This document shows, one piece after another, positions 1-53,472 of a DNA stretch of 64,000 nucleotides; position 1 is the stretch's first letter; each line of letters starts with the position of its first letter. Location: NCBI RefSeq assembly GCF_001427635.1, contig NZ_LMHA01000002.1, positions 248,001 to 312,000 on the forward strand. Direction: 5' to 3'. A program made the translations under genes and the position numbers. The DNA comes from Pseudoxanthomonas sp. Root65 (GTDB lineage Bacteria > Pseudomonadota > Gammaproteobacteria > Xanthomonadales > Xanthomonadaceae). The notes under the pieces were generated by a model. It was not told the DNA's origin, made no database searches, and worked only from the letters and a program-made list of their open reading frames with translations.

Positions 1-128
1 ATGTCGTGGTGCGCCGATCGTGACGCCAGTACGACAAACATGACGCTCGGCTGACGACGGCGGCTGGCGTTGACGGGCGCGTGACGCGTCCGCGCCTAGC
101 GTGTCTCCATTCCCGACGAGAAAGCGCC

Positions 129-48347: not shown

Positions 48348-49193
48348 TCAGCCGACGATCAGCACGAAGTCCCCGCGCTGCGAGGCCATCGACAGCGCCA
48401 GCGTGCTCTCGCGTGCGGCCAGGTCGGCGGCGGACAGCGTGGTGCTCGGGGGATGCGCGCGGTAGCTGGCGTCATCGGCCAGGGTGTCGCGCACCACGTA
48501 GCCCATCAGCACGTTGACCAGCTCGCCCAGTGCGTCGAGGGCGAGTTCGTCGTCGCACTGGTCGGGCGTGATCGACAGCAGCGAACAGCCGATCGCCTGC
48601 ATGGTGGCGCGGCTGCAGCCGATGCCGATCAGCAGGGATTCCGTGCCGGCATCGATGCGCACGTGCGCCGTGACGTCGCAGGCGGCGAGCGTGGCGGCAT
48701 CGGCGATGCCGGATGCCTGGCACTGGCTGCCCAGCAGGCGCGGGAACAGGCGGTTGCTGACGCGGATCGCGCTGGTGGCCACGTCGGCCAGCGCGTGGCC
48801 GGCGATGCCGAGCGCGAGTGCGTGGTTGGCCTCGTCCAGGTCGCGGCGATGCGCGGCCAGTTCCGTCTCCAGCTGCTCGGCGGTCAGCGTGCCCTGTTCG
48901 ACCAGGATCTGACCGAACAGCTTGCGGCCCTTCTTCTGCGCGGTCAGCAACACGTCGAGCTGGCCGGCGTCCAGCAGGCCCATCTCCAGCGCGATGTCGC
49001 CGAAGCGGCGATCCTCGGCGCGCTGGCGGTCGTTGATGCGGCGCGCCTGCGCGGCATCCAGCATCTGGTGATGGACGGCCAGTTCGCCGAGCAGGGGGTT
49101 GGAGGCGCGCTGCGCGTCGAGCGCGGCCAGCAGTTGTGCGGAGGTGATGGTGCCGCGTTCCAGCAGGAACTGGCCCAGGAATTTCGCTGCCAT
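48348..49193 (-). CDS. MshEN-repeat protein with CheX-like phosphatase domain
   Basis: 281 aa. Residues 5-115 are four 24-residue motifs (5-28, 34-57, 63-86, 92-115), each of the form xLGxxLxxxGxxxxxqLxxxLxxQ and separated by exactly 5 residues (RASNP, RAEDR, KKGRK). This is the MshEN pattern, known in other proteins to bind c-di-GMP. The C-terminal half resembles CheX/CheC phosphatases: DELALDALGELVNVLMGYV contains the ExxN signature (E and N of ELVN). The neighbour 43 bases upstream is a CheY-like regulator, its probable substrate. Overall role inferred: c-di-GMP-controlled dephosphorylation of the regulator. Confidence 0.75.
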   Translation of the reverse strand: MAAKFLGQFLLERGTITSAQLLAALDAQRASNPLLGELAVHHQMLDAAQARRINDRQRAEDRRFGDIALEMGLLDAGQLDVLLTAQKKGRKLFGQILVEQGTLTAEQLETELAAHRRDLDEANHALALGIAGHALADVATSAIRVSNRLFPRLLGSQCQASGIADAATLAACDVTAHVRIDAGTESLLIGIGCSRATMQAIGCSLLSITPDQCDDELALDALGELVNVLMGYVVRDTLADDASYRAHPPSTTLSAADLAARESTLALSMASQRGDFVLIVG

Positions 49194-49236
49194 GATGTGG
49201 TCTCGTACTGAAGAGGAAGGAGAACGTGCGCGGTGG

Positions 49237-49605
49237 TCAGGCGACCGCTTCGTGCAGCACGCGATCCATCACTTCCGGATCGATGGGTTTCTGCAGGTAC
49301 GACTTCGCACCCAGCTTCAGGCAGTCCTCGATGTCGCTCTGCGCGCCGAGCGAGCTGAGGATGACCACGCGGGCGCCGGGGTCGTGCGAGAGGATCCGGG
49401 CGAGCGCCTGCTTGCCATCGCACTCCGGCATCACCAGGTCCAGCAGCACCACATCGGGCTGCAATGCCTGGTACTGGTCGAAGGCTTCGTTGCCGTTGCC
49501 GGCTTCACCCACGACTTCGAAACCGCAGTCGGACAATTGGCGTGCGGCAAGCATGCGCAAGGCGCGCGAGTCGTCGCACAGCAGGACGGTAGGACGTGAC
49601 GTCAT
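49237..49605 (-). CDS. CheY-like single-domain response regulator
   Basis: 122 aa, receiver domain only. Acidic pair LLCDDSRA, phospho-acceptor Asp in VVLLDLVMPE, Ser/Thr switch in VVILSSLGAQ and Lys in YLQKPID are all present, so it should be phosphorylated. No output domain. Co-transcribed with the CheX-like gene 43 bases downstream. The partner kinase is not in the window. Confidence 0.92.
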   Translation of the reverse strand: MTSRPTVLLCDDSRALRMLAARQLSDCGFEVVGEAGNGNEAFDQYQALQPDVVLLDLVMPECDGKQALARILSHDPGARVVILSSLGAQSDIEDCLKLGAKSYLQKPIDPEVMDRVLHEAVA

Positions 49606-50719: not shown

Positions 50720-51949
50720 TCACTGCCCGGCAGACGCATCGCCGTTGCGTGCGAGCGTTTCCTCGACGGCGGTGAACGCGGAGTTCGCACCGGCTGCCGA
50801 CGTGCCCGCGTCGGTGGCGAAATACGCAACGCCCGTGCCGCGCTCGCGATCGATCCACAAGCCGGAGCGCAGACCGTAGGCGTCGCCGGAATGGCCCACG
50901 TGCGCGCGGCCATCGCCGAACAGGTCGTCACCGCACTGCGCATGCGGTGTCGCCAAGGTCTGCGCGGCGAGGCCGTAGCGGCAGAAGAAGGCCTTGGCCG
51001 TGCCGGCGCCGGTGTCTTCTTCGTGCGTCACGCCGTTGTCGCCGGTGAAGGTCCACTGGGGGCGCAGTAGTTCGGCCACGGCCGCCGGTTGCAGCAGCCG
51101 GACGCCGTCGACGTCGCCCTGGTTCAACAGCAGGCGCCCGATCTTCGCTAGCCCATTGGCCGAGATCCGCAGGCCGCCTTGCGGCGAGAACAGTGCGCCG
51201 TTCTCGCCGGCCTTCCAGCGGGCGAGATCGCAGTCGGCTCCGTCCTTGACGACGACGGCACAGGCGGGTTTTCCCGCCCGGTTTTCGTCGCGCACCGACG
51301 CGCGGTCGCGATACAGCACCACGGCACGCATGGCGGTGTCGGCGTCGCAGCTTTCCCAGTTGAAGCAGGCGTCCAACTTCAGCGGCGTTAGCACCAGACG
51401 GCGCATCAACAGGTCGAAGCGTTCGCCGGTGGCGCGTTCCATCGCCATCGCCACCAGCGGGAAGTTGAGGTTGGTGTAGCGGAAGTGCGTGCCGGGCGCA
51501 TGCGCGTCGTCCCAGGCCTTCGGGTCGTCGAGGATCGTCTTGAGCGGTTCGCCCAGCGGCGTGGCGTAGTAGCCGGCGGCATCGGTCAGGCTGGAGCGGT
51601 GCGACAGCAGCAGGCGCAGGGTGATCGGTGTGTCGGGGAACTGCGGGTGGCGCAGCGTCCAGCCCAGGTAGGTGGACACGTCGGCATCGAGGTCGAGCGT
51701 GCCCGCTTCGACCAACCGCATCACGCCGATGGCGGTCACCAGTTTCGAGATCGAGGCGATGCGCACGGGATCGTCGGCGGTGACCTGGCGACCGGTGGCG
51801 AGATCGGCCTTGCCTTCGGCGCGGGTGGCGACGATGCCGCCGCGGTCGAAGGCGACGCGCACCTGCGCGACGGGTTCGCCGGCCGATGCGATCGCCGCGA
51901 CGGCGAGGCAGGGCAGCAGGACGAGGATGCGGATACGACGGAAGGACAT
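50720..51949 (-). CDS. Secreted serine hydrolase, class C beta-lactamase family
   Basis: 409 aa from ATG 51949. Signal peptide to about residue 23 (LVLLPCLAVAAIASAGE). The SxxK motif is SISK in VRIASISKLVTAIG, the YxN-type motif lies in FRYTNLNFPLVAMA, and the HSGDAYG segment serves as the KTG-like box. Family members are esterases, DD-peptidases or beta-lactamases; this is not a typical AmpC by length. Localised in the periplasm. It is 32 bases downstream of mmsA on the same strand, but with no clear metabolic link. Confidence 0.82.
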   Translation of the reverse strand: MSFRRIRILVLLPCLAVAAIASAGEPVAQVRVAFDRGGIVATRAEGKADLATGRQVTADDPVRIASISKLVTAIGVMRLVEAGTLDLDADVSTYLGWTLRHPQFPDTPITLRLLLSHRSSLTDAAGYYATPLGEPLKTILDDPKAWDDAHAPGTHFRYTNLNFPLVAMAMERATGERFDLLMRRLVLTPLKLDACFNWESCDADTAMRAVVLYRDRASVRDENRAGKPACAVVVKDGADCDLARWKAGENGALFSPQGGLRISANGLAKIGRLLLNQGDVDGVRLLQPAAVAELLRPQWTFTGDNGVTHEEDTGAGTAKAFFCRYGLAAQTLATPHAQCGDDLFGDGRAHVGHSGDAYGLRSGLWIDRERGTGVAYFATDAGTSAAGANSAFTAVEETLARNGDASAGQ

Positions 51950-51981
51950 GCGTCTGCGCCTCTCGGGGACCGGCACCGACT

Positions 51982-53472
51982 TTACTTCATCGTCGGCATC
52001 ACGAACTCGGCCGCGTGCGTCTCCGGCCAGCGGGCGGTGACGGTCTTCAGGCGGGTGTAGAAGCGCACGCCATCCGGGCCATGCACATGCAGGGGGCCGA
52101 AGATCGAGCGTTTCCAGCCGCCGAAGCTGTGGAAGGCCATCGGCACCGGGATCGGCACGTTGATGCCGACCATGCCGGCCTGCACGCGATGGGCGAACTC
52201 GCGCGCGGCGCCGCCATCGCGGGTGAACACGGCGGTTCCGTTGCCGTACTCGTGGGTGTTGACCAGATGCAGGGCGGCCTCGAGATCCGGCACCCGCATG
52301 ACGCACAACACCGGGCCGAAAATCTCCTCGCGGTAGATCGTCATGTCCGGCACGACGCGGTCGAACAGGCAGCCGCCGAGGAAGAAACCATCGGCATGGC
52401 CGTCGACCACGTGGCCGCGACCATCGACGACCAGCGTCGCACCCTCGGCCACGCCGGCATCGACATAGCCGCGTACCTTGTCGCGGTGCGCCGCGGTGAC
52501 CAGCGGGCCCATTTCCGGATCCAGGCAGCCCGGGCCGATCTTCAGTGCGGCGACCTTGGGGGCCAGCGCCGCCACCAGCGCGTCCGCGGTGGCATCGCCT
52601 ACGCAGACCGCCACCGAGATCGCCATGCAGCGCTCGCCGGCGGAACCGTAGCCGGCACCGAGCAGCGCGGAGACGGCGCCGTCCAGGTCGGCATCGGGCA
52701 GCACGACCATGTGGTTCTTTGCCCCGCCCAGCGCCTGCACGCGCTTGCCGTTGGCACTGCCGCGCGCGTAGATGTATTCGGCGATCGGGGTGGAGCCTAC
52801 GAAACTCAGCGCCTGCACGCGCGGCTCGTCGAGCAGCGCGTCCACCGCCACCTTGTCGCCGTGCACGACATTGAAAACACCATCGGGCAGGCCGGCCTGT
52901 TTCAGCAGGTCGGCCATGAACAGTGCCGCCGACGGATCGCGTTCCGACGGCTTCAGCACGAACGTGTTGCCGCAGGCCAGCGCCACCGGGAACATCCACA
53001 GCGGCACCATCGCCGGGAAGTTGAACGGCGTGATGCCGGCGACCACGCCGAGCGGGGCGTACTCGCTCCACGAATCGACATCGCGGCCGACGTTCATCGA
53101 ATGCTCGCCCTTGAGCAGGTGCGGGATGCCGCACGCGAACTCGACGACTTCCAACCCGCGCGTCACTTCGCCACGCGCGTCGGAGAGCACCTTGCCGTGC
53201 TCCGACGTAATGATCTTCGCCAGGTCGCCGGCGTGCTTCTCCAGCAGTTCCTTGAAACGGAACATCACGCGCGCGCGGTTCAGCGGCGTGGTCGCCGCCC
53301 AGGCGGGGAAGGCGGCGGATGCGGCATCCACCGCTCGCCTGACGTCATCGGCCGACGCCAGCGGCACGCGTGCGGTGACGACGCCGGTGGCGGGGTCGAA
53401 CACATCGCCGAAGCGGCCACTGCCGCCTTCCACCCGCTGTCCGTTGAAGAAATGGTGCAGCGCTTCTGTCAT
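51982..53472 (-). CDS. mmsA: Methylmalonate-semialdehyde / malonate-semialdehyde dehydrogenase (CoA-acylating)
   Basis: 496 aa aldehyde dehydrogenase. Oxidises (methyl)malonate semialdehyde to acetyl-CoA or propionyl-CoA. MmsA features: [41 protein letters not shown], catalytic Cys in [35 protein letters not shown]. Close resemblance to the BauC/MmsA group fits the neighbouring bauA-like transaminase, whose product is malonate semialdehyde. 227 bases separate it from ald. Confidence 0.95.

Follow-up and report, generated by a model that had tools for sequence, protein, structure and literature searches.

A two-gene locus of Pseudoxanthomonas sp. Root65 pairs a CheY-like receiver with a CheX-type putative phosphatase carrying four MshEN motifs

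Introduction

How the phosphoryl group of a CheY-like receiver is removed, and whether a second messenger might set the pace of its removal, is the question raised by two adjacent genes in a 64,000-nucleotide stretch of the Pseudoxanthomonas sp. Root65 genome (hereafter the window). The preliminary description, made from the letters of the window, read these genes as a CheY-like regulator and a protein joining an MshEN-type half to a CheX-type phosphatase, and proposed that c-di-GMP gates the phosphatase. If this is true, cellular c-di-GMP would control chemotaxis at CheY-P removal, with a single protein acting as sensor and enzyme. Even without c-di-GMP binding, the locus would still represent an additional, conserved CheY/phosphatase pair in bacteria most of which also possess CheZ. 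The combination of MshEN and CheX domains was already named in one sentence in 2016 (PMC5013675), and our search of the open-licence literature found no study of any characterised MshEN-CheX protein. Among Vibrio proteins, the CheX-family member VC0377 is mentioned as secondarily mutated in a motility suppressor (PMC8789113).

Results

Both open reading frames lie on the minus strand, at the positions given in the preliminary description. The receiver (49237..49605, ATG start, 122 aa, Pfam Response_reg 90.4 bits) is followed after a gap of 43 bp by the downstream gene for the MshEN-CheX protein (48348..49193, ATG start, 281 aa), which was delimited by ORF, Pfam, and NCBIfam evidence and modeled by AlphaFold (pLDDT 94.6, pTM 0.78). 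The closest named relatives of the MshEN-CheX protein are from Pseudoxanthomonas, at up to 93% identity. The receiver carries D11, D12, D56, S84, and K106, which we take to be the acidic pair, phospho-Asp, Ser/Thr, and Lys positions of CheY, and with all five present the claim that it is intact for phosphorylation holds. D56 and K106 were kept in 63/63 loci counted, some of which are copies of one genome. McvR of Xanthomonas (PMC8995066) was weighed as a possible relative of this receiver and set aside.

An rRNA methyltransferase gene adjoins the pair here and in Pseudoxanthomonas loci. Elsewhere (L012, L017, L116, and L120 only) the neighbors encode an antiporter, a PilY1-like protein, RNase E, a pseudouridine synthase, a TPP enzyme, and others, and no common theme was found among the flanking genes across the loci compared. 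The PilY1-like protein (1160 aa, L116:6873-10355) adjoins the pair in a distant relative and scored 27.9 bits, just below the cut-off. Within the window, a long minus-strand ORF at 50720-53134 overlaps with its 5' part an aldehyde-dehydrogenase-like ORF (51982-53472); its second half resembles secreted serine hydrolases of the beta-lactamase/penicillin-binding kind (SISK).

The pairing of the two genes is conserved. A receiver adjoined the phosphatase in 17/17 named loci (both genes being frameshifted in L020) and in 43 of the 46 positive genomes among 297 genomes of the family (both genes being in pieces in G514); the two sets overlap. A search of 369 genomes of the class gave five full-length relatives in three other families, with 26-33% identity in the CheX part, and the receiver was adjacent in all five, partly out of frame in G835. 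At the order level 22/299 genomes had a match, but only 6 of these were full-length, all from the same family. At the class level, three partial matches with frames of similar length (G655, G525, and G790) are MshEN-like motifs on other proteins; because no CheX part could be seen in them by eye, they do not contradict the pairing. The same class also contains short MshEN-like proteins, about 270 aa long, with C-terminal parts that do not resemble CheX (L121:3539-4348, L122:3965-4780). In Pseudoxanthomonas sp. NC8 (L020 and L105) the receiver, the phosphatase, and several neighbors are all split by frameshifts, a pattern that suggests poor assembly and not gene death.

The N-terminal half contains four 24-residue motifs, at residues 5-28 (49110..49181), 34-57 (49023..49094), 63-86 (48936..49007), and 92-115 (48849..48920), all on the minus strand. 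Their starts at 5, 34, 63, and 92 give an exact 29-residue period (24 + 5) and thus two motif pairs with the 5-residue spacer of MshEN domains (starts 5/34 and 63/92). Scored at 11 positions per window against the relaxed MshEN motif (PMC5013675), motif 3 fits at 11/11 positions (R63, L79, L83, Q86) and motifs 1, 2, and 4 at 9, 8, and 8. The total of 36/44 was reached, at any start, by 0/20000 shuffles of the protein (maximum 31). A lone window scoring 8 is unremarkable, as four more such windows occur in the same protein; it is the periodic set that stands out. NCBIfam NF053729 (c-di-GMP_motif, MshE-related) matched in two stretches with 76.8 bits (E 7.7e-22, cut-off 38), and the two matches in the Root65 genome above the MshEN-motif cut-off both lie inside the MshEN-CheX gene. 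The MshEN arrangement read from the letters is therefore borne out by period, score, and profile. Pfam matches to FumaraseC_C and DUF4388 fell under the cut-off and were discarded; fumarase tails resemble these helices structurally as well.

Departures from the key residues ([R/K/L]-L-G...G...L-xxx-L-xx-Q) are found at Q43 for Gly and A50/N54 for two Leu in motif 2 (which begins with L34 and ends in Q57) and at H115 for Gln in motif 4 (L92, L108, L112). Motif 1 runs from F5 at position 1 to Q28 at position 24. We followed these residues in an alignment of 190 rows, made of 62 loci, which include copies of one genome, and 128 of 131 homologs from protein searches, the latter drawn from the best 120 of 246 and best 120 of 256 matches; three short homologs, two frameshifted loci, and four copies of the window were excluded. 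Gly at position 3 of all four motifs and Gln28, Gln57, and Gln86 are kept in 190/190 rows; in motifs 1, 3, and 4 the hydrophobic positions 17 and 21 are mostly kept as well. Position 1 is F5 in 190 rows, L34 in 156, R63 in 186, and L92 in 150. Residue 50 is Ala in 180/190 rows and otherwise Ser or Val; residue 54 is polar in every row (Asn 145, Gln 24, His 21); residue 115 is His in 178 and Gln in the other 12. Residue 43 is Gly in 170/190 rows but Gln in this protein. The distant relatives outside the family have N54 in 5/5 and H115 in 4/5 cases, which argues for a conserved variant; decay of the motifs was rejected, since the odd residues are conserved despite an overall identity of 26-33%.

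The predicted structure recovered both the MshEN_N four-helix fold and the CheX fold. The model matches MshE over residues 32-89, that is motifs 2+3 (one alignment per structure entry), and the alignment to 9g1w spans 1..115 with one model and 32..80 with the second. By profile, motif pairs 1+2 and 3+4 score 47.4 and 42.9 bits, and pair 2+3 scores 27.5, below the cut-off of 38. Model pairing (2+3) and profile pairing (1+2 / 3+4) thus disagree over 48849-49181, and counts of site pairs were uninformative on which motifs pack together. Going by the model, motifs 1 and 4 might pack together.

The C-terminal half (residues 132-281, 48351..48800, minus strand) is a CheX-type phosphatase domain. Pfam CheX (PF13690) was borderline for the protein, with 27.0 bits at a cut-off of 27, and gave 29.2 bits in a six-frame search of the genome; two of four relatives tested scored over the cut-off (32.7, 30.8) and two under it (26.6, 25.2). 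GELVNVLMG at residues 223-231 supplies the ExxN signature that had been noted, as E224 and N227 of ELVN (48513..48524, minus strand), which align to the GExxN of the solved CheX structures 3hm4 and 3h4y. CheX-family phosphatases use the Asn to orient the attacking water and the acidic residue to contact the receiver Lys (PMC3035606). Across the 190 rows E224 is kept in 190, D220 in 189, and N227 in 182; the other eight rows, two of which are the same gene, have Ser, and N227 is replaced in one clade only.

This clade includes the three genomes in which no receiver lies beside the gene, G466, G487, and G505 (99, 99, and 87% complete). Their orphan genes have ExxS for ExxN (L092:2501-3343 in G466, L106:4001-4843 in G487, and L093:1694-2536 in G505), and four more homologs, known as proteins only, share the Ser. 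All seven form one clade with support 99/96 in a tree of 57 rows from which 8 duplicates had been dropped. No comparable receiver was found elsewhere in the three genomes, the best match having 33-37% identity (E <= 1e-10), as compared with 62-80% for the adjacent receiver in G001, G111, G433, G354, and G402. Within the 297-genome search, they also had no FliM and no CheZ match, and 3 CheW matches each versus 8 each in G001, G111, and G433, the comparison genomes of their genus. That the flagellar chemotaxis set disappeared along with the receiver and the catalytic Asn is as predicted for a CheY-P phosphatase of that pathway; being confined to one clade, the joint loss is a single event. Because the whole set was lost, the event fits the paired receiver and the flagellar CheY equally as target. 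The orphan gene is open and constrained: over 3 pairs its halves have mean dN/dS of 0.36 and 0.35, compared with 0.31 and 0.61 over 21 pairs of receiver-paired relatives, so that some role persists without receiver or Asn. On sequence grounds, it is possible that the orphan proteins are phosphatase-dead readers.

FliM occurs in 154 and CheZ in 150 of the 297 family genomes, and FliM was present in 41/46 genomes with the protein versus 113/251 without it (odds ratio 10, Fisher p 1.2e-8, uncorrected for kinship). Within the genus, the protein was found in 9/13 FliM-positive and 0/5 FliM-negative genomes; four members (G032, G211, G260, and G286) have FliM and lack the module, which is thus not needed for the flagellum. 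The FliM-negative G402 keeps receiver and Asn; given its CheZ and 8 CheW matches, the lack of FliM is probably a gap in the assembly. G354 (75% complete) keeps receiver and Asn with 4 CheW matches and no match to FliM or CheZ. In Root65 itself, CheZ lies beside another receiver (25% identical) in a contig region that also holds FliM, which makes the MshEN-CheX pair an additional one, and its contribution could be small given that CheZ is also present. There are 43 receiver matches in this genome, the pair's own included, and the pair is unlinked to the CheW-bearing regions.

Discussion

The domains, their folds, the conserved pairing, and the loss in one clade together with the flagellar chemotaxis set follow from the sequence, the model, and the genome comparison. 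Given conserved adjacency and the joint loss of receiver and catalytic Asn, the proposed link between phosphatase and receiver stood up, and we consider it likely from these sequence comparisons that the MshEN-CheX protein is the phosphatase of its paired receiver. It is likely, too, that the module is tied to flagellar chemotaxis. That the CheX half mainly serves another receiver, either the flagellar CheY encoded beside CheZ or a Chp receiver, with the neighbor being incidental, is a slim prospect: the genome offers many receivers, the pair sits away from the CheW-bearing regions, and a canonical CheY fits the co-loss as well, but adjacency in 43/46 and 5/5 genomes speaks against it. A Chp receiver fits poorly because the Asn was lost though 3 CheW matches remain in each orphan genome without the receiver, which weakens a Chp/pilus link; in G466 one of these matches belongs to a very long frame, which resembles the Chp-like region of Root65 (both called Chp from their layout).

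Whether the MshEN half senses c-di-GMP depends on its unusual residues. The preliminary description had cautioned that sites without Arg at motif position 1 may be inactive. Arg is indeed found in motif 3 only (R63; the others have F5, L34, and L92), but its absence is not disabling: GSPII-B of Thermus PilF, with Lys/Leu at this position, binds with a KD of 6 nM, and its authors widen the motif to (R/K/L)LG (PMC11731258), which rules out a missing Arg as proof of an inactive site. The doubtful positions are A50/N54, plus Q43 and H115 in this protein. XpsE of Xcc lost binding via several changes of key residues (PMC5013675), and with conserved departures here and a dispensable Arg in PilF, the site could bind or not. 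A constitutive phosphate sink, in which the phosphatase acts on the paired receiver and the MshEN half is a non-binding dimerisation or docking module, is on balance unlikely. It has the XpsE precedent and the conservation of A50, polar 54, and H115, with N54 and H115 recurring in distant relatives, on its side; against it are the invariant Gly and Gln residues, the largely kept positions 17/21, and the fact that motif pairs 1+2 and 3+4 each pass the profile cut-off alone. Sensing of some other ligand, for instance another cyclic dinucleotide or another nucleotide, is improbable. The changed positions hold across families at low identity, which suggests a specialised site over decay, and MshEN binds cGAMP weakly (PMC5013675), but the 40 GGDEF matches in the Root65 genome make c-di-GMP the obvious ligand. 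Judging from the sequence, gating of the phosphatase by c-di-GMP falls a little short of an even chance. The proposed direct coupling of the second messenger to the phosphorelay is a well-founded hypothesis rather than a result.

We thus propose a two-gene module in which a CheY-like receiver is served by a phosphatase dedicated to it. Through its CheX half, the phosphatase would bring E224 and N227 to the active site of the receiver in its phosphorylated state and hydrolyse phospho-Asp56. The MshEN-type half with its four motifs would act as a switch that senses a ligand, most likely c-di-GMP, and changes phosphatase activity, in either direction, and with it how long the receiver signal lasts. 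The module would work beside the flagellar chemotaxis system, with the flagellum as the presumed target organelle, in addition to CheZ. For this mechanism as a whole, a receiver with a c-di-GMP-switched dedicated phosphatase beside the CheZ system, we see the balance as even. More tentatively, the proteins may form a widespread, uncharacterised class of c-di-GMP-gated CheY-P phosphatases. The messenger would bind a conserved MshEN variant with four motifs and directly determine how long a dedicated second CheY, beside the CheZ-controlled one, stays phosphorylated; after loss of flagella the protein would persist as a phosphatase-dead c-di-GMP reader. Because the genes are small and adjacent and the catalytic Asn has been lost naturally in one clade, the proposal is directly testable in vitro.

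Compared with the MshEN domains of V. cholerae MshE and T. thermophilus PilF GSPII-B, the present protein has four motifs, no ATPase, and the unusual A50/N54 and H115. With the CheX phosphatases (T. maritima 1xko, B. burgdorferi 3hzh) it shares the fold, the ExxN site, and presumably the CheY-P substrate; it differs in its N-terminal MshEN fusion, with 10-17% identity in VIA alignments to eight CheX/CheC-like entries. In Borrelia, the c-di-GMP receptor PlzA is a PilZ-type protein. According to a review, it has been suggested that a c-di-GMP receptor, PlzA, modulates the activity of CheX or CheY3 (PMC4013479); there the receptor is separate from CheX, whereas here a sensor-like domain and CheX are in one protein. 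The Cle proteins of Caulobacter bind c-di-GMP on the CheY-like protein itself (PMC5677366) and MapZ is a c-di-GMP-binding adaptor for chemoreceptor methylation (PMC6370697). Neither is a CheY-P phosphatase, but like the present module both are points at which c-di-GMP meets the chemotaxis machinery. The MshEN-CheX fusions of PMC5013675 have the identical domain combination and are known there by name alone.
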